This document shows, piece by piece, positions 4,383 to 61,889 of a stretch of 64,000 bases of DNA. Each line of letters starts with the position of its first letter. Position 1 is the first letter of the stretch. The position numbers and the translations under genes are program-made. This DNA comes from Alphaproteobacteria bacterium (lineage in GTDB: Bacteria > Pseudomonadota > Alphaproteobacteria > Micropepsales > Micropepsaceae): the NCBI GenBank assembly GCA_025350465.1, contig JANXXU010000024.1:124001-188000 (forward strand), read 5' to 3'. The notes beneath the pieces were generated by a model. The model was not told the DNA's origin and did not search any database. It was given only the letters and a program-made list of their open reading frames with translations.

Positions 4383-4641
4383 TTGCACTTGCGGCCGGCG
4401 CTCAACCAGCGCGCGCTGCACGCCACGACTTCGAAGTTTCGTAGGCGTTCGCGGAGAACAGCCGAAATCTGGCCACGTCTTGTGGTTGAGTGTGCCGCGT
4501 CGGTCACAGTCGAGAGCTACGTTGATCGCCTGTGATCGAATCACCGTTGATTGATACAGCACGGACTCGCACCCTTCGACGATTGGGAGCCGCCACGGCT
4601 TGGGGCCGGCGGCATGTTCGTCCTTTTGGGGGCACACTTTC

Positions 4642-5685
4642 ATGAAAATTAGAACACTTCTGCTCGGCACCGTCGTAGGTCTCGCGTTCGCCGGCTCGGC
4701 GCAAGCGGCGCCTTTCCATGGTTGGTATGTGGGTTTGGAAGGCGGCGCCGATTGGGTGCAGAAGGACAATTTTGTCAACCACTTCACTGGCGGCGGCCCG
4801 TCCATCATCGACGAGCAATTCAGCGTCAAGACGGGGTGGGCGGTCTTGGCCACCGTCGGTTATGCCTTTGGTCGGCATTGGCGCGTTGAAGGCGAGGCCG
4901 GTTACCGGGCCAACAACCTTGATCGGTTGAAAGTATTTAGCCCGCCAATTTATGCCGGCAGTGGCCCCGCTCAGGGCGATCTGCGGGAAATGACGCTGAT
5001 GGCGAATGTGCTCTATGACATTCCACTTACAGCGAAGCTGGACTTGTCGATCGGCGCCGGTGTCGGCGCAGACAATGCGCGCCTCAAAACGACTCCAAGC
5101 TTTTCCGATTCCACATGGGACTTCGCCTACCAAGGTATCGCGGCGCTGAATTATTCAATCGGGCAGCGCTCGCAACTCTTCGTGGATTATCGGTATTTGA
5201 CGGATTCGAGCCCCAAGTTCGATGGTGGTCCCAATCACCTGTCCTTCGACGACATCCACAAACACACCGTGACGCTCGGTTTGCGCTATGCGCTCGAGCC
5301 GCAAGAAGAAGCGGCGCCTCCGCCTCCTCCGCCGCCACCACCACCACCGGCAGCGCCGTCGCACTTCATCATCTTCTTCGGCTTCAACAAATGTAACATC
5401 ACGGCCGAAGCCGATAGCGTGTTGAGCGAAGCGGCGTCAGCCGCCAAGAGCATGGGTTCGGCCAGCGTGACGATCGTCGGTCACACCGACACCGTCGGCT
5501 CGAACAAGTACAACCAGAAACTCTCCGAATGCCGCGCACATGCGGCCGAGTCCAACCTGGAGGGCAAAGGCGTGCCGAAGGGCGCGATCTCGGCTTCGGG
5601 CAAAGGCGAAACGGAGTTGATGGTTCAGACGGGTGACGGCGTAAAAGAGCCGCAAAACCGTCGCGCCACGGTCGATCTGCACTAA
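4642..5685 (+). CDS. ompA: OmpA-family outer-membrane protein
   Basis: A 347-residue protein in the classic OmpA layout: a signal peptide (residues 1-20, ending GSAQA), an N-terminal eight-stranded beta-barrel (about 22-220, beginning FHGWYVGLEGGADWVQ and closing LGLRYAL), a linker of consecutive prolines (about 228-242) and a C-terminal OmpA peptidoglycan-binding domain. In that domain the two residues that contact diaminopimelate are in place: D283 of GHTD and R298 fifteen residues later. It anchors the outer membrane to the wall. Start is at ATG 4642, after TGGGGG; the frame is open upstream to 4600 but the signal peptide fixes the start. A terminator follows immediately. Confidence 0.95.
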   Translation: MKIRTLLLGTVVGLAFAGSAQAAPFHGWYVGLEGGADWVQKDNFVNHFTGGGPSIIDEQFSVKTGWAVLATVGYAFGRHWRVEGEAGYRANNLDRLKVFSPPIYAGSGPAQGDLREMTLMANVLYDIPLTAKLDLSIGAGVGADNARLKTTPSFSDSTWDFAYQGIAALNYSIGQRSQLFVDYRYLTDSSPKFDGGPNHLSFDDIHKHTVTLGLRYALEPQEEAAPPPPPPPPPPPAAPSHFIIFFGFNKCNITAEADSVLSEAASAAKSMGSASVTIVGHTDTVGSNKYNQKLSECRAHAAESNLEGKGVPKGAISASGKGETELMVQTGDGVKEPQNRRATVDLH

Positions 5686-17906: not shown

Positions 17907-18153
17907 AGGGTGAGCCGGCGGCTTCTCGGATTCCGGCGATCTTGTGAGGCGGGAGCACAAGATATGCGCTTATGCGTGCATTGCGCGGCGCCAACGACCC
18001 TAGGTCGCAACATTGATCTCACAGAATTCAGGCGCTTAACTGCGCGCGCGGCTCGCACTTCGCTTGGGCTTCCTGTAGCGTTAACTTCTAGCGGTGGCGT
18101 GCCGGAAGCTGGGTCCGGCGCTGCAGTATTGGTGTGTTCGTGGGGGACCGCAG

Positions 18154-20268
18154 GTGTCGAACGGGGCTCTGTTCGTCAGCTTTGCCGAAAGCGATGGCGG
18201 GCATTCGTATCTGGCGGCGCGAGCGATGCTCGAGCCCAGCCAGGTCGGCCACCTCGTTTTCCGCAATACCGTGTCTGAAACCCTGGACGCGCTGGTCGCG
18301 GGCCAGTCGAATTTCGCCGTCGTGCCCTTCTACAATTCGATCACGCAATGGGAAGGCGCGACCGTCAAAGCGCTCGCCACAGGCCAGTTCGAAATCTTTG
18401 CGCAGACCTGCATGCCGACGAGTTATGTGCTGGCCGCACACCGCGAGCACATCAACATCGCTCTGCAGCTTTATGCGACCGAACGGAATATCCCGGCTGA
18501 AAATCTTCCCGATTTCACGCAGTTGGACGATTGGTTGAAAAAGAAGTTCGACAGATTCACCTCGGAGAATCCGCAATCGTCGCCGGAAGAGCGCAGGAAG
18601 TACGAAGAGCGCGAGTTAGAAGGTGCGAAGGACGCGCTGAAAACCTACACGCGCTTACTAACGACAATCTACGTCGGCGCGCAGGCGGACGAACAATATC
18701 GCGGCCGGCTGCTGCGGCCGGACATGAACAAAGTCGACATCGATCTGACGCGCAATCCGCTGCGCGTTCTGGAAGAGGTGAACCGCTCCGACCTGATGAA
18801 GTCGATGGCGCGGTCGCAAGGGCCGCAGCCAATCTACCCGCCACAAAATGTATCGGGCGGCGGAATACCGCTAAACTTTGGCTTCGGACCTGCGCCACTG
18901 CTTAAAGACTTCAAGGGTCCCGCCGCCCTCGTCGCCAAGGGTTTGATGGAAGCGCCCGGCAGCCAGGAAGGCTGGGATAAGCCAGGTTCGCTGGGTGAGA
19001 TCGTCGCGCTCCTGCGCAAGCTGCAGGTGCTGCTCGATGTCTATTCGTTCGGACCACCGGACCTGCCCGACAACAAAACCCAATATTTTCTCCTGGCGCG
19101 AAAAGGCGAAAAGATTCGCCCGGATTTCCAATCGATCGCCGGCGCACATGACGCGCCGTTGCGGACGATGGCTCTGATAAGAGCCAATCCCAAGGTACAT
19201 GGGCGCGACGTTTGGTTGGGCCCGCGCGAGGAATTGCGGCGGCGCACAGAAAAGCCTCTCGGCATTGTCTATGACCGCGCGCCGCTGATGGTGTCGCCGA
19301 CGGGACGCACCGTCTTCCTGCAGGAAGGCGGCAAGCTCAGGTCGATGCTCGGCGGGCACAGCGATATCAAAGAGCTTGCCGAAAAACTCAAGAAGGCCGT
19401 TGAGCGCAAGCCGAGCGAAGGTGGCTGGAGCAACAGCGCGTCAAGACTCGATGCCTCGTTCCTCGGCGTTTATCCAACCTGGTCGGCGGATAAGATTTGC
19501 GACGGTTGGCTGTGCGAGCCGGCCGGGCCGCACAAGCCCGACTTGCCGCCATCGGCATTCCTCATCTGGCTTGGGAAGAACTGGCTGCTGCTCTTGTTCC
19601 TCCTCCTGTTGCTGACCGGCATTGCTTATTCGCTTCAGGCGTGGCGCGCCGCTTGCGAGGAGTCCGATTCCGCGTGGTGCACCGGTCACGTCGATTGGCA
19701 GAAGGTTTTCCCACCATCACCGCCACCTTCGGCGAGTGAGCCTCCAGTCGTACCGCGGAGCGAACCGCCGGCTGCGAGTCCAAGCGCACCGCACACGAGC
19801 GAGCCCGCGCACTATCCGACGAGCGCGCCACCACCGCCCGTTCAAGTGACGCCGCCCGTGACGCATGCGCCACCGCCACCAGTCGCCGGGCCGCCGCCCT
19901 ACGTTCCACCGCCTGAGCCCGTGTTCCATGTGCCGTTCTTCGAGGCGAAGGCAAACCTGTTGCCAGAGTCGCTAACCGCGCTGCGCGATGCCGCGATGCG
20001 CGCGCTCGAGACGGATAAACTCGTACGCTTGCGCATATTTGCATTGGGCCCGCGCGAAACAGACGGCGAATTGTGGCGCCGGCGCTTGCAAGCGGTGAAG
20101 GACGAGCTCGTGCGCTTGGGCGTGCCGGCGGATCGCATCACGCAGGAAGGCGAGGGGCCCTATGAGGTCGTCATCCGGCAACGCGTGGTGCCGAGCACAC
20201 GCACCGGTCGCCAGCGTGTGACGATGGAGGTGATCCCCGATCCCCTCGCCGGAGATGACGATCAGTAG
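18154..20268 (+). CDS. Prephenate-dehydratase-like domain, membrane helix and OmpA-like tail in one protein
   Basis: A 704-residue protein of a layout I do not recognise. Residues 3-98 read like the first lobe of prephenate dehydratase (LFVSFAESDGGHSYLAARAM, then NFAVVPFYNSI, matching the usual VPxENS segment with Glu replaced by Tyr). After a long insertion the dehydratase-type ending returns as DNKTQYFLLAR (T309), where the usual NxTRF motif has Arg changed to Gln. One strong membrane helix (about 477-496) follows, then a proline-rich linker (about 519-590) and a C-terminal OmpA-like fold (about 594-680) lacking the diaminopimelate-binding Asp. With no signal peptide, the N-terminus should be cytoplasmic and the tail periplasmic. 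GTG 18154 is chosen because GGGGG sits seven bases upstream; GTG 18094 lacks this. Catalysis is doubtful; ligand sensing is one possibility. Confidence 0.75.
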   Translation: MSNGALFVSFAESDGGHSYLAARAMLEPSQVGHLVFRNTVSETLDALVAGQSNFAVVPFYNSITQWEGATVKALATGQFEIFAQTCMPTSYVLAAHREHINIALQLYATERNIPAENLPDFTQLDDWLKKKFDRFTSENPQSSPEERRKYEERELEGAKDALKTYTRLLTTIYVGAQADEQYRGRLLRPDMNKVDIDLTRNPLRVLEEVNRSDLMKSMARSQGPQPIYPPQNVSGGGIPLNFGFGPAPLLKDFKGPAALVAKGLMEAPGSQEGWDKPGSLGEIVALLRKLQVLLDVYSFGPPDLPDNKTQYFLLARKGEKIRPDFQSIAGAHDAPLRTMALIRANPKVHGRDVWLGPREELRRRTEKPLGIVYDRAPLMVSPTGRTVFLQEGGKLRSMLGGHSDIKELAEKLKKAVERKPSEGGWSNSASRLDASFLGVYPTWSADKICDGWLCEPAGPHKPDLPPSAFLIWLGKNWLLLLFLLLLLTGIAYSLQAWRAACEESDSAWCTGHVDWQKVFPPSPPPSASEPPVVPRSEPPAASPSAPHTSEPAHYPTSAPPPPVQVTPPVTHAPPPPVAGPPPYVPPPEPVFHVPFFEAKANLLPESLTALRDAAMRALETDKLVRLRIFALGPRETDGELWRRRLQAVKDELVRLGVPADRITQEGEGPYEVVIRQRVVPSTRTGRQRVTMEVIPDPLAGDDDQ

Positions 20269-20815
20269 TCCGGTTCGCCCGCTAATCGCGATTGCCGTGA
20301 CGCTTGTGTCAACGGGCTTGATGTCCTGCGAGAGCCGAACACCTGCCAAATGGCGAACTTACGAATCCAAGGGGGACGGATTCTCCGTCCAGTTTTCCGG
20401 TGATGTCGTCACGGAGAAACAACCGATCAATGCCACGACTAAGGGCAAATACGCCAAAGTCACCATTTACAAGGAAGACCCCGGACCGTTTTCGTTTTCT
20501 GTCGCGGTGCTGGTGATCGAACCCGGCTTTCACCCCGACTATGATGCCATGACAAAGAACGCGGTGGAGCGGTTGAAGTGCACCCGGATCGACCACGACA
20601 CATCCCCGGATGGGGATCGCACTGCAGCGATGCTGGGATCCGACAACACGCGGACCATCCATGGCTCGAACTGCACGGCGGCCCGCTTTCGTGCGGCTCA
20701 ATTATTCGTACGGAAGGGTGAGCGGTTTTATTTGGTCGAATACGTCATTCCGGGCGACGCTAACCCATCAGATGCGGAGCGCTTCCTCCAGTCTTTCAAG
20801 CTCATATCTCAATGA
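20255..20815 (+). CDS. Probable lipoprotein of unknown function
   Basis: A 186-residue protein whose first 25 residues look like a lipoprotein signal (hydrophobic run AIAVTLVSTGLMSC, with C25 as the candidate lipid-bearing cysteine). The mature part is beta-rich and ends RAAQLFVRKGERFYLVEYVIPG, then SDAERFLQSFKL, a pattern common in small alphaproteobacterial periplasmic proteins described as hypothetical. It starts within the last codons of the upstream fusion gene (14-base overlap), so both are probably made together and may work together in the periplasm. Function unknown. Confidence 0.7.
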   Translation: MTISSPVRPLIAIAVTLVSTGLMSCESRTPAKWRTYESKGDGFSVQFSGDVVTEKQPINATTKGKYAKVTIYKEDPGPFSFSVAVLVIEPGFHPDYDAMTKNAVERLKCTRIDHDTSPDGDRTAAMLGSDNTRTIHGSNCTAARFRAAQLFVRKGERFYLVEYVIPGDANPSDAERFLQSFKLISQ

Positions 20816-58372: not shown

Positions 58373-58915
58373 CTAGTCGGCGGCGAGCTTAAGCTCGCGG
58401 GCGCGCGTCAAGATCAAGTTCTCGATCTTGGTCGTGGTGTCGGGATCGACGCTGGCGTCGACCCAATTGCCGGCCGCGTCCTTCGTCTGCTGGAACACGG
58501 AGACGCGAAGGGCGTCGGTGCGCAATCGCGTGTCGAGAATGAATACCGTGACCTTCAAGCGCTGGGTCGGCGATTGGGCGGCCGTGTACCAGTTTGTCTT
58601 GATGACGCCGGCGAACGGATCGGCGCTTTCCATCGGCATGAAATGGAGCGTGTCCAAGGTGGCGCGCCAAAGAAATTCGTTGACGCCGATGCCCTGCGTC
58701 GTGCCGGACGAACCGAAAATGCCGAACATGCCGCCGTTGTTGTCCTGGACCTGATCGCTCGGGCGGTTGGGCTCAGGGCGCGGCAGCGGCGCGTCGACCT
58801 GCGGCGCCGGTTCCGCCTCTTTGGGCTCCGAACTGCACGCGGCAAGACCGAAAACAGCGGCGCTTGCCATTACAACCAGCGCGAATACGCGCGCAGCAAC
58901 TGAAAGGGTTTTCAT
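58373..58915 (-). CDS. DUF3576 lipoprotein
   Basis: A 180-residue protein with a lipoprotein signal (lipobox GLAAC, C27) and a Pro/Glu-rich linker. The DUF3576 core follows: GIGVNEFLWRATLDTLHFMPMESADPFAGVIKTNWYT, LKVTVFILDTRLRTDALRVSVFQQ and a closing ILTRARELKLAA. DUF3576 is typical of alphaproteobacteria and often lies upstream of leuS; its function is unknown. It is divergent from the first porin gene, with 244 bases between. Confidence 0.93.
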   Translation of the reverse strand: MKTLSVAARVFALVVMASAAVFGLAACSSEPKEAEPAPQVDAPLPRPEPNRPSDQVQDNNGGMFGIFGSSGTTQGIGVNEFLWRATLDTLHFMPMESADPFAGVIKTNWYTAAQSPTQRLKVTVFILDTRLRTDALRVSVFQQTKDAAGNWVDASVDPDTTTKIENLILTRARELKLAAD

Positions 58916-59159
58916 CGAGGGCCCGAGGGTGAAGCGACGTTACGGCCGAATTGCGGCATTTGTTATAGGGCATCGACTGGGCGAGCGGCAATCGGGTTCC
59001 TCGACAAGTTGCAGCGAGCCCGTGATCGACGTCACCGGTGAACGTTCATTTGACTTTTTGCCTTCAGAACCGAACACTTACGGCTTCGGGATTCGAAAGT
59101 GTATCCAGTTGTGTCAGCGGCTGTCTTCCGTGGCGGCGCCACCCCGCGAGTTCTGTGCG

Positions 59160-60479
59160 ATGCGTGAGATCAGACAGTTGTTGCTCGGCGGTGCGGCAGT
59201 GCTAGGCGCACTAGCTCTCGGCTTGCAGGCAAGCGCGGAAGAGTACGGTTTTGACTACGGCGGGTATGTGAATTTCTCAGGCTATGGTGTCGACCAAGAC
59301 TCCGTACCGGGGAGCGATGTCCAGGATTTCGGCTTTGCCGCGGACGCGCATGTGCGCGGGCGGGCGAAGGTCATCCTCGACGATGGCATTGAGCTTGGCG
59401 TTCGTGCCCAGCTACGCTTCGAATCGGATGAGGCGCGGTTTTCCGACGATTCGATCCGCGGCGCCCCGAGAATCCTCGACAAATTCTTCATCTATGGCCA
59501 GCACGCGTTCGGCCGGCTGTCGATCGGTGACGACTACGGCGCAGCGGAACAGAGCGGAATTTTCGCACCGGTCGTCTCGGAAGCGAACCGGGTCGACAAT
59601 CCGCGCCACTACATCCTGCAAGATCCGCTGCGACCAAGTTTCACGCCCTACGCCCCGAACGGCGCCCATTTGCGCACCGACCTCAACGCATCGGGCGAAG
59701 CGTTCAAAATCATGTACGCCTCACCGCGCCTGATCGGCGTGGAAATCGATGTTTCCTACATGCCGGAGCTGACGCGCGGGCTGAACGACCTGTTCAACAA
59801 CGAACATGAACTCGACGAGCAATCGAACATCTGGGAAGCCAATTTGAGCTACCAGAAGTCGCTCGGCGGTTTCGATTTCGGGGCATATGCCGGCTACTTG
59901 ACCGGCAAGAATGAACACCCGAGCGTCAGGATGCTGCAGATCATAGCGCCGCGGTTGAGCGATGGTGCGATACTGCCGTTCTCCTCGAACCTCTTTACGC
60001 CGGACGACGTGCAGGAATATGGCGCCGGCGCACAGGTGGCCTATGAAGGGTTCAAAGTCGGCGGGTCGTGGCGTCATACCAACATTGCCGGCGGCGGACC
60101 GCTGCGCGACGACAACGTTTCGCCGCCCGCATCGACTGGGTGCGGCCAGCTTGGCGGATGCGTGTTGCCGAATGCCGACACGGAGATTTGGAGTGCCGGA
60201 GTGACCTACGAGACGGGTCCGTGGCAGTTCGGCGTCAACTACGCCAACCTCACCGAGCAGCTGCCGCCCTTTCTTGATGCGGGCGTGACACGCCATCTGA
60301 CACAAAACGGCGAGGCCTGGCAGGGAACGGTCGGCTACGAAATCGCCAACGGCGTCGATCTCTATGCCGGCTATCAGCGCTACAGCTTCAGCGGGCCGAC
60401 CGGCGGGTGTTCACTTGCCGCATGCGATTCGCTCCAAGCAGACGTTGGTTTTCTGCAAACCGCGATCTCGTTCCCCTAG
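59160..60479 (+). CDS. Gram-negative porin, first of a tandem pair
   Basis: A 439-residue outer-membrane barrel with a signal peptide (residues 1-26, ending LQASA). The mature part is rich in aromatic and glycine residues in alternating strands: GYVNFSGYGVDQDSVPGS, KFFIYGQHAFGRLSIGDDYGAAEQSG, VQEYGAGAQVAYEGFKVGGSWRHTN. It ends FLQTAISFP, a terminal aromatic as in BAM substrates. It resembles porins of the Porin_4 type. ATG 59160 starts the signal peptide; the frame is open upstream. Similar in pattern to the next gene. Confidence 0.9.
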   Translation: MREIRQLLLGGAAVLGALALGLQASAEEYGFDYGGYVNFSGYGVDQDSVPGSDVQDFGFAADAHVRGRAKVILDDGIELGVRAQLRFESDEARFSDDSIRGAPRILDKFFIYGQHAFGRLSIGDDYGAAEQSGIFAPVVSEANRVDNPRHYILQDPLRPSFTPYAPNGAHLRTDLNASGEAFKIMYASPRLIGVEIDVSYMPELTRGLNDLFNNEHELDEQSNIWEANLSYQKSLGGFDFGAYAGYLTGKNEHPSVRMLQIIAPRLSDGAILPFSSNLFTPDDVQEYGAGAQVAYEGFKVGGSWRHTNIAGGGPLRDDNVSPPASTGCGQLGGCVLPNADTEIWSAGVTYETGPWQFGVNYANLTEQLPPFLDAGVTRHLTQNGEAWQGTVGYEIANGVDLYAGYQRYSFSGPTGGCSLAACDSLQADVGFLQTAISFP

Positions 60480-60656
60480 TCGGGAATCGTTAATCATTGG
60501 GGCGTAGCCCTATGGATTGGTGCGCCTGCAGGTTGAATCACACTCTGGCTGGAATTCGCCTTGGCGGCGAAACGGCGGCGTGTTTTAACACTTAGCCACG
60601 TCGACCGTTCGCAACGAGCCGGCGTCGCAAGGCCATCGAGTGACGAGGGGGCCATA

Positions 60657-61889
60657 TTGAAAAAGCTAACATTGAGTGTCGTGAGCTTCCTCGCGTTGAC
60701 GGGTGTTGCCCATGCGGTTCAAACCAAGCTCGGCGACGTCAATCTGAAACTTTCGGGCTACGGCACGCTCGTCGGCGAAGGGATCGGCCAATCCAATCAA
60801 AGCGGTCTTGATTCCGTCGTCGGTGCGATCGACACGTCGATTATCGGCGCGGCGTGGATCGACAGCGACGCTGAAGAGTTCGGTGCGGTCGTCGCCCTCG
60901 ATATCGACTACGCGAGCAATTTCAATTCCATGCTCAACGATGCCGGCTCGAACACCATTCTGAACCAAGCTTGGATCTATTTCGACAGTCCCTTGGGCCG
61001 CCTTCAGGTGGGCCAGCAGGACGGCGCGGCCCGCGTGCTCGGTCTGCGCCCGCCGTCCGTCTCGGGCAGCGTGCGGGTCGACAATCCGGAAGTCTTTCTG
61101 CTCGGCTATCCGTGTAACAGTTTCTGCAGCAATACTGCGCAGGCACCGGGCTCGATCTTCAGTCCGAACGGCATGCAGCTGCGCTCCGACATCCACTCGT
61201 CGGATGTGTGGCTGAAGGTTGCATATTACACGCCGCGTATCGCCGGCTTTCAGCTCGGCGTTTCGTACACGCCCGACGGCTCGCGCAACCTCGGCGAATT
61301 CTTCGGCGGCGGCAGCAACCGACCCAACAAGCAAAGCAACGTCTTCGATATCGCGCTCAACTACATTGCGACGGTGGGCGCGGTCGATGTCGGCGCTAGC
61401 GCCGGCTACGTGACCGGAAGGAACGAGCACAATGATTTCCCGGGCACCTTCACCGACGTACGCGATTGGGGCGCGGGCTTAAACCTCGGCTATCGCGAGT
61501 GGTCGGCGGGTGTCTCCTATCGGCGCACTAATGTCGCCGGCGGCGGCCCGGTTTTGCACGGCGCGTTCACAAGCAACGTGATCGACCGCAACGATACGGA
61601 TATCTGGTCGGCGGGCGTGAAATACGAAACGGGACCCTGGGCGTTCGGCCTCGACTACATCACCTCGAGAGAACAGATTCCTTTCTCGACAGATCAGACC
61701 GGCAAGGGCATGGAAGCCGCGGTCGGATATACCTTCGACGAACACATCCGGTTCACTGGCGGCTATCAGCGCTTCGAGTTCGACGGTCCGTTCGGCAGCT
61801 GCCTAACCGACAAAGGCGGCTTGGGCTTCCCGCCATGCGATACGCTCGATGCCAATGTCGGCTTCGTCGAAAGCAAATTCAGCTTCTGA
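60657..61889 (+). CDS. Gram-negative porin, second of a tandem pair
   Basis: A 410-residue barrel with a signal peptide (ending LTGVAHA). It shares blocks with the first porin: SSLGRLQVGQQDGAARV-like QVGQQDGAARVLGLRPPS, WSAGVSYRRTNVAGGGPVLHG, DTDIWSAGVKYETGPWAFGLDYIT and a terminal GGYQRFEFDGPFGSC to FVESKFSF. The TTG at 60657 is chosen since GAGGGG lies seven bases before it and it begins the signal peptide. Tandem duplication is likely, with divergence since. It overlaps the convergent thiE by 11 bases. Confidence 0.9.
   Translation: MKKLTLSVVSFLALTGVAHAVQTKLGDVNLKLSGYGTLVGEGIGQSNQSGLDSVVGAIDTSIIGAAWIDSDAEEFGAVVALDIDYASNFNSMLNDAGSNTILNQAWIYFDSPLGRLQVGQQDGAARVLGLRPPSVSGSVRVDNPEVFLLGYPCNSFCSNTAQAPGSIFSPNGMQLRSDIHSSDVWLKVAYYTPRIAGFQLGVSYTPDGSRNLGEFFGGGSNRPNKQSNVFDIALNYIATVGAVDVGASAGYVTGRNEHNDFPGTFTDVRDWGAGLNLGYREWSAGVSYRRTNVAGGGPVLHGAFTSNVIDRNDTDIWSAGVKYETGPWAFGLDYITSREQIPFSTDQTGKGMEAAVGYTFDEHIRFTGGYQRFEFDGPFGSCLTDKGGLGFPPCDTLDANVGFVESKFSF

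Follow-up and report, generated by a model that had tools for sequence, protein, structure and literature searches.

From its N- to its C-terminus, the 704 aa protein encoded at 18154–20268 (+) of the window (the whole 64,000-nucleotide stretch of DNA that was analysed) comprises a prephenate dehydratase (PDT) module, an ACT-like domain, a single membrane segment, a linker rich in proline and an OmpA-like domain. Even chances are given to the proposal that this protein is a membrane-tethered, neofunctionalised PDT–ACT module, most likely a sensor or a scaffold, that takes no part in phenylalanine synthesis. The proposal is favoured by the PDT fold over the soluble part, the membrane segment and locus shared by all 13 homologues, the retention of an ordinary PDT, the changed cleft, the lack of an ES[Y/F] motif, purifying selection and the OmpA-like profile matches. 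The gene is a single open frame with a GTG start at 18154 and a stop at 20268; GGGGGA at 18142–18147, upstream of the GTG, is Shine–Dalgarno-like. The gene and its parts are as follows:

18154..20268 (+): the whole gene from its GTG start, 704 aa and a stop codon (open frame; 10 further genomes of the genus have homologues)
18166..18441 (+): PDT first subdomain (residues 5–96), with the ESDGGHS loop and VVPFYNS (PF00800 over cut-off; hhalign; AF2)
18442..18657 (+): insertion 1 (residues 97–168), shorter in congeners except G001 (alignments A1 and A6)
18658..18771 (+): second-subdomain stretch (residues 169–206), SHPQ-like region with the invariant Q181 (hhalign, alignment)
18772..18915 (+): insertion 2 (residues 207–254), Gly/Pro-rich (alignments A1 and A6; model confidence low)
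18916..19104 (+): first subdomain resumed (residues 255–317), DNKTQY replacing NTTRF (alignment)
19156..19485 (+): ACT-like domain (residues 335–444), ending LGVYPTW (AF2 strand and helix order; PDT–ACT chains aligned over 5–445; weak sequence profile)
19552..19644 (+): membrane segment (residues 467–497) (hydropathy maximum 2.23; AF2 helix 477–503)
19645..19917 (+): proline-rich linker (residues 498–588) (sequence)
19918..20175 (+): OmpA-like domain (residues 589–674), wall-binding Asp loop absent (AF2, Foldseek, tail profile)
20176..20265 (+): C-terminal tail (residues 675–704) with a conserved Asp-Pro (alignment A7; model confidence low)

The soluble part and its cleft

PDT ancestry, which had been suggested from the sequence, was borne out by family profiles and by two structure models. 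The window protein scores 26.0 bits with Pfam PF00800 against a curated cut-off of 25.2 (profile positions 8–100 of 181), and the same family matches 12 of the 12 aligned homologues at E ≤ 1; with NCBIfam PRK11898 the score is far under the cut-off (23.6 vs 219). The ordinary PDTs used for comparison were 30 extracted sequences, of which 23 went into alignment A3 and, from these, 17 into A5 and 18 into A6; the homologue of genome G018 was left out of alignment A4. A profile of the 13 homologues aligned by hhalign with the 23 ordinary PDTs over residues 5–188, including the SHPQ-like region, with a probability of 95.9 and E of 5.3e-9; among solved PDTs it matched 3mwb (E 6.1e-10) and 2qmw (E 3.1e-7).

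Both AlphaFold models were built without ordinary PDTs in the alignment. Model 1 is the window protein (AF2, 12 homologues in the alignment); model 2 covers the G004 homologue's soluble part, in which the insertions are shorter than those of the window protein. Confidence in the models is modest; their Foldseek TM-scores lie around 0.4–0.6 by target length. Model 1 has a mean pLDDT of 60 and is poor across residues 164–306; its best matches are PDTs over approximately residues 5–445, namely 4lub (Z 15.9, 185 residues aligned, 3.5 Å) and 3mwb (Z 15.5, 254 aligned, 4.6 Å), and the first match outside the PDT fold appears at Z 8.7. Model 2 has a mean pLDDT of 69, and its best PDT-fold match reaches Z 13.2 (184 aligned, 3.5 Å) vs 8.6 for the first match of another fold; the best 12 Foldseek rows are all PDT-fold, with E from 1.7e-10 to 8.2e-8 and TM-scores of 0.40–0.54 by target length. 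The single parts agree with PDTs better than does the relative placement of the parts.

Structure prediction, proposed earlier as a check of the fold, thus returned PDTs as top matches and no unrelated N-terminal fold. Since both models match PDTs first over the whole soluble part, the likeness, originally placed in the N-terminal half, extends to a PDT with an ACT-like domain; the PDT assignment stood and its extent did not. The number of insertions was also revised: one long insertion had been described, and at least two are present relative to ordinary PDTs (about 97–168 and 207–254), as seen in alignments A1 and A6, the latter containing the 13 homologues and 18 ordinary PDTs. We conclude that the soluble part is a PDT with an ACT-like domain behind it and that both insertions lie within the PDT. 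A short (N)(V/L)SGG(S/G)I stretch within insertion 2 (18772–18915) is kept in most congeners; the model leaves this region unfolded.

Residues 336–444 of model 1 show the ferredoxin-like β–α–β–β–α–β order, with strands at 336–343, near 378 (short, the second strand), 387–394 and 433–444 and helices at 352–369 and 403–416; model 2 has fewer strands in this part. By hhalign, the C-terminal half of the soluble part matches PDTs weakly (probability 14, E 0.0019). Pfam ACT was reported for none of the homologues, and the genome's own ordinary PDT also escaped it, so this test is insensitive. The ES[Y/F] motif (ESRP-type, phenylalanine site) is present in the ACT part of none of the 13 homologues vs 18 of 18 ordinary PDTs.

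Nine columns are invariant in all 31 sequences (13 homologues and 18 ordinary PDTs), including G15, N61, Q181, N307 and T309. We take N61, Q181 and T309 to be the equivalents of the catalytic Asn160, Gln215 and Thr278 of the E. coli enzyme (placed by motif); these are found in 13/13 homologues and 18/18 ordinary PDTs. Every homologue has other residues in place of Glu159 and Ser208, and in all but the G018 homologue (12 of the 13) the TRF arginine is replaced as well; in ordinary PDTs, the ENS glutamate is present in 17/18, the SHPQ serine in 18/18 and the TRF arginine in 18/18. The original prediction had read ENS to YNS (60–62) and TRF to TQY (309–311) as changes of catalytic motifs. Both changes are present, but N61 and T309 within them are kept in all 13 homologues. 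In all 13 homologues another five residues are constant, E12, D14, G16, T70 and E180; apart from one D at position 14, none of them occurs in the 18 ordinary PDTs. The most conserved residues sit in the cleft loops (E12–S18, N61, Q181 and T309). Two acidic residues gained in a loop of ordinary PDTs would argue against a dianion such as prephenate as the ligand.

According to PMC10845154, TRF is critical in PDTs, and ESRP and GALV bind ligand. A precedent for altered motifs is GqqA of Komagataeibacter europaeus (7am0), which shares the PDT–ACT fold, turned to another task, and is among the best fold matches; PMC8192741 describes it as a PDT-fold acylase that has two of the four known residues and complements an E. 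coli pheA mutant. In contrast to the window protein, GqqA is soluble, has 281 residues and retains the Glu equivalents E55 and E127 (same source). Because the three catalytic positions are invariant, and in light of GqqA, the motif changes are no proof of simple inactivation. Judged by its residues, the cleft is rebuilt and not plainly dead.

Monofunctional PDTs with an ACT domain (3mwb, 2qmx, 6vh5 and the PDT of the same genome) share with the window protein the fold, the PDT-then-ACT order and residues G15, N61, Q181, N307 and T309. Compared with them, the window protein has two insertions, replaced cleft residues, a membrane segment, a linker and an OmpA-like tail, and has no ES[Y/F].

Membrane segment, linker and OmpA-like tail

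The single membrane helix expected from the sequence corresponds to one hydrophobic segment at residues 467–497. Such a segment lies at the same place in 13/13 homologues and is missing from the genome's own ordinary PDT. Hydropathy suggests a topology in which the module would be cytoplasmic and the far end periplasmic. In most congeners (L032–L036, L039 and L040), Cys clusters flank the segment, CWCC before it and YC..TGAC after it; the window protein and that of G001 are without flanking clusters of this form. A proline-rich linker (residues 498–588) follows, as had been described; it is the least conserved part of the protein, with a mean pairwise identity of 34%.

Pfam OmpA (PF00691) gave no match to the window protein at E ≤ 10 and matched five of 12 homologues at E ≤ 1, one of the 12 being without a tail and another cut before it. 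A linker-free profile of ten tails (alignment A7, from which the separate G007 tail was left out) matched seven other frames of the window's own genome, with E from 1.1e-12 to 6.6e-6, and solved OmpA-like domains in the PDB from E 3.5e-4; six of the seven frames were read, and all six contain the GHTD motif. By these profile matches the C-terminal domain is genuinely OmpA-like. It shares with OmpA-like domains (1r1m, 6jfw and OmpA-type frames of the same genome) profile similarity and the strand–helix order, and differs from them in the missing wall-binding Asp loop, the replacement of Asn by Asp and the lack of an outer-membrane barrel.

The claim that an OmpA-like fold is present without the wall-binding Asp agrees with this profile and with the alignment of the tails. 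The printed alignment has a four-residue gap at the GHTD wall-binding Asp and Asp in place of Asn, with Leu and Arg retained; GHTD, which carries the diaminopimelate-binding Asp, occurs in 0/10 tails, and after the Asp loop all ten have Leu or Ile at 51 and Arg at 54–55. In TagL, Asp486, Asn494, Leu497 and Arg501 contact diaminopimelate, as stated in PMC8253398. Standard peptidoglycan binding by the tail is doubtful, because the wall-binding Asp segment is missing and Asn is replaced by Asp.

Elsewhere in the window, frame 4600–5685 (+) encodes an OmpA with a C-terminal GHTD domain; it has several relatives in the genome, three of them adjacent on contig C45, and is a possible donor of the tail. 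MotB_plug has one match over cut-off in the same genome, in a 507-residue open frame.

The layout is analogous to that of TssL of type VI secretion, which likewise combines a cytoplasmic domain, a single near-C-terminal membrane helix and, in some cases, an OmpA-type extension; PMC3426401 and PMC8253398 describe TssL as C-tail anchored, some members having a fused peptidoglycan-binding domain. The cytoplasmic domain of the window protein, unlike that of TssL, is PDT-like; the likeness is one of layout and not of membership.

Distribution and locus of the gene

Going by names assigned from frame sequences, the gene lies between hslVU on one side and the convergent smr–mltA–tim44 on the other, with secB beyond. 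A homologue stands beside hslU in all 11 searched genomes of the genus, the window's own included; smr is on the other flank in 10 of them, and the G007 contig stops inside the gene. The check proposed earlier, a search for the same order of parts in other genomes, found it unbroken in 10/11 genus genomes. In two further genera of the family, represented by genomes G016 and G018, homologues stand after hslU and before smr–mltA; these comprise the soluble part and the membrane segment, followed by just 20 and 47 residues. The G018 homologue was recognised by profile and missed by tblastn. The hslU-adjacent locus is thus common to 13/13 homologues, and all 13 carrier genomes also encode an ordinary PDT (strong match). 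An OmpA-like tail was seen in the window's genus alone among the three; the tailed architecture holds for that genus and not as a shared trait, two of the three genera being without it. The tail may have been gained in the window's genus or lost elsewhere.

A search of the family (96 genomes) gave matches in 21 at E ≤ 1e-5, 13 of them at E ≤ 4.4e-108; the remaining eight match weakly, in the first third of the protein, and are taken for ordinary PDTs. Searching the 96 genomes for the order of parts returned the same 13. In the class, where no more than four candidates were scored for any genome, 2/385 genomes matched at E ≤ 1e-9, the window's own and G241; the G241 match overlaps an ordinary 295-residue PDT frame and was rejected as a homologue, so that at this depth of scoring the homologue is confined to the window's own genome among the 385. 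A pattern scan of genome contigs yielded 11 loci, all from uncultured Alphaproteobacteria MAGs; the patterns are insensitive to the G018 branch, since loci of that type were missing from the result. In five class relatives (G025, G030, G032, G037 and G039) smr follows hslU, and the gene was found there neither by tblastn (among the matches listed) nor by profile (E ≤ 1e-9); the sensitivity of tblastn in this comparison is limited, as the true G018 homologue was also missed. Across the phylum, PF00800 matches 382 of 398 genomes, and the longest open frame among the matches listed is 560 aa; the absence of the PDT–membrane–OmpA architecture elsewhere in the phylum is weakly supported.

Rough NG86 dN/dS values against the nearest relative are 0.065 for the PDT core, about 0.08 for residues 169–330, 0.15 for the ACT-like part, 0.11 for the OmpA-like part and 0.19 for the linker; they are only rough because synonymous sites are close to saturation. 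The gene is under purifying selection. This selection and the unbroken order in 10 of 11 genus genomes contradict a frameshift joining two genes, which had been named as a possible objection. An artefact, that is, two genes fused by frameshift or misassembly, has in its favour that each half resembles its own family only slightly, and nothing else, and its probability is negligible; with the order unbroken in 10/11 genomes, and the G007 gene meeting the contig end on both pieces, it was ruled out.

No conserved neighbour or partner gene of the protein was found. A 186 aa frame at 20255–20815 (+), whose ATG lies within the last codons of the gene, has a lipoprotein-like N-terminus (LMSC); neither Pfam nor NCBIfam matches it at E ≤ 10 and the frame, considered as a conserved partner, is present in one of 21 genomes, the window's own. 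Two porin-like frames, alike each other, stand in tandem at 58767–61889 (+). Promoter-like sites number 0 vs 0.6 expected and terminator-like sites 4 vs 4.1 expected. Rfam gave no match within the window, PADLOC and PHROGs none, and no entry of the viral structure library matched at E ≤ 0.001.

Possible function and its meaning

In the proposed scenario, a PDT–ACT gene lying between hslU and smr in the ancestor of three related genera would have gained a C-terminal membrane helix, by which the protein would be suspended from the inner membrane with its PDT–ACT module in the cytoplasm. The rebuilt cleft would most likely bind a ligand other than prephenate, PDT activity presumably having been lost. 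In one genus, the proline-rich linker and OmpA-like domain would carry the far end into the periplasm, where it would probably dock on an envelope partner and not use the standard peptidoglycan grip. Sensing or scaffolding is likelier than phenylalanine synthesis. The proposal is weakened by N61, Q181 and T309, which in 13/13 homologues fit a working enzyme, by the TRF arginine kept in G018, by the weak sequence match of the C-terminal half, by the modest models, by a topology drawn from hydropathy and by the fact that no ligand or partner was found. A reading of the protein as a trans-envelope receptor, with a retired biosynthesis enzyme as the cytoplasmic sensing head and a signal passing through the ACT-like domain and helix to the docked OmpA-like domain, is tentative, at clearly less than even chances.

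Three other explanations keep to a real gene. The protein may still be an enzyme, a membrane-tethered PDT-fold hydrolase or lyase whose substrate is new, on the pattern of GqqA with its acyl-homoserine lactones. The three invariant catalytic positions, the new invariant acidic loop, the PDT-core dN/dS and the presence of 7am0 within the top ten matches of both models agree with this. It is opposed by the loss of the Glu159, Ser208 and TRF-arginine equivalents and by the absence of a candidate substrate or pathway gene adjoining, and a membrane anchor is, to our knowledge, no usual part of PDT-fold enzymes. Such an altered enzyme is somewhat unlikely; the three retained cleft positions, and the ability of GqqA still to complement a pheA mutant, make it a serious rival. 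The same losses, with the ordinary PDT in 13/13 carrier genomes, tell against a second, membrane-bound prephenate or arogenate dehydratase still engaged in phenylalanine synthesis, which is very improbable despite the PDT fold, the three retained positions and the PDT activity that GqqA has with few known residues (PMC8192741).

It is also conceivable that the protein is a scaffold or a structural part of the envelope, the PDT–ACT fold being just a dimerising platform that takes no small ligand. An ACT-like part without ES[Y/F], a tail suited to docking and the variability of the insertions and linker would suit such a role; a mere platform has no need for top-conserved residues in cleft loops, and this explanation is considered quite unlikely.

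The preferred reading, a neofunctionalised module on a membrane tether, draws on two ingredients that are already known: PDTs put to another use, and OmpA-type tails on inner-membrane proteins. Their combination fits the earlier statement that the order of parts is undescribed: in open-licence PMC text, no description was found of a PDT followed by a membrane anchor and an OmpA-like domain, and nothing on PF00800 with PF00691 or on prephenate dehydratase as a pseudoenzyme.

The family looks like a metabolic enzyme turning into a membrane protein, with the intermediates still alive: at one hslU locus, over three genera, a series runs from module with anchor to module with anchor and OmpA-like tail. 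The ordinary PDT in each carrier genome is a built-in control, and the table of kept and replaced cleft positions makes the question of prephenate replacement directly testable. If the receptor reading is true, these proteins would form a new class that signals across the envelope from inside to outside and that would have arisen stepwise, anchor first and tail later.
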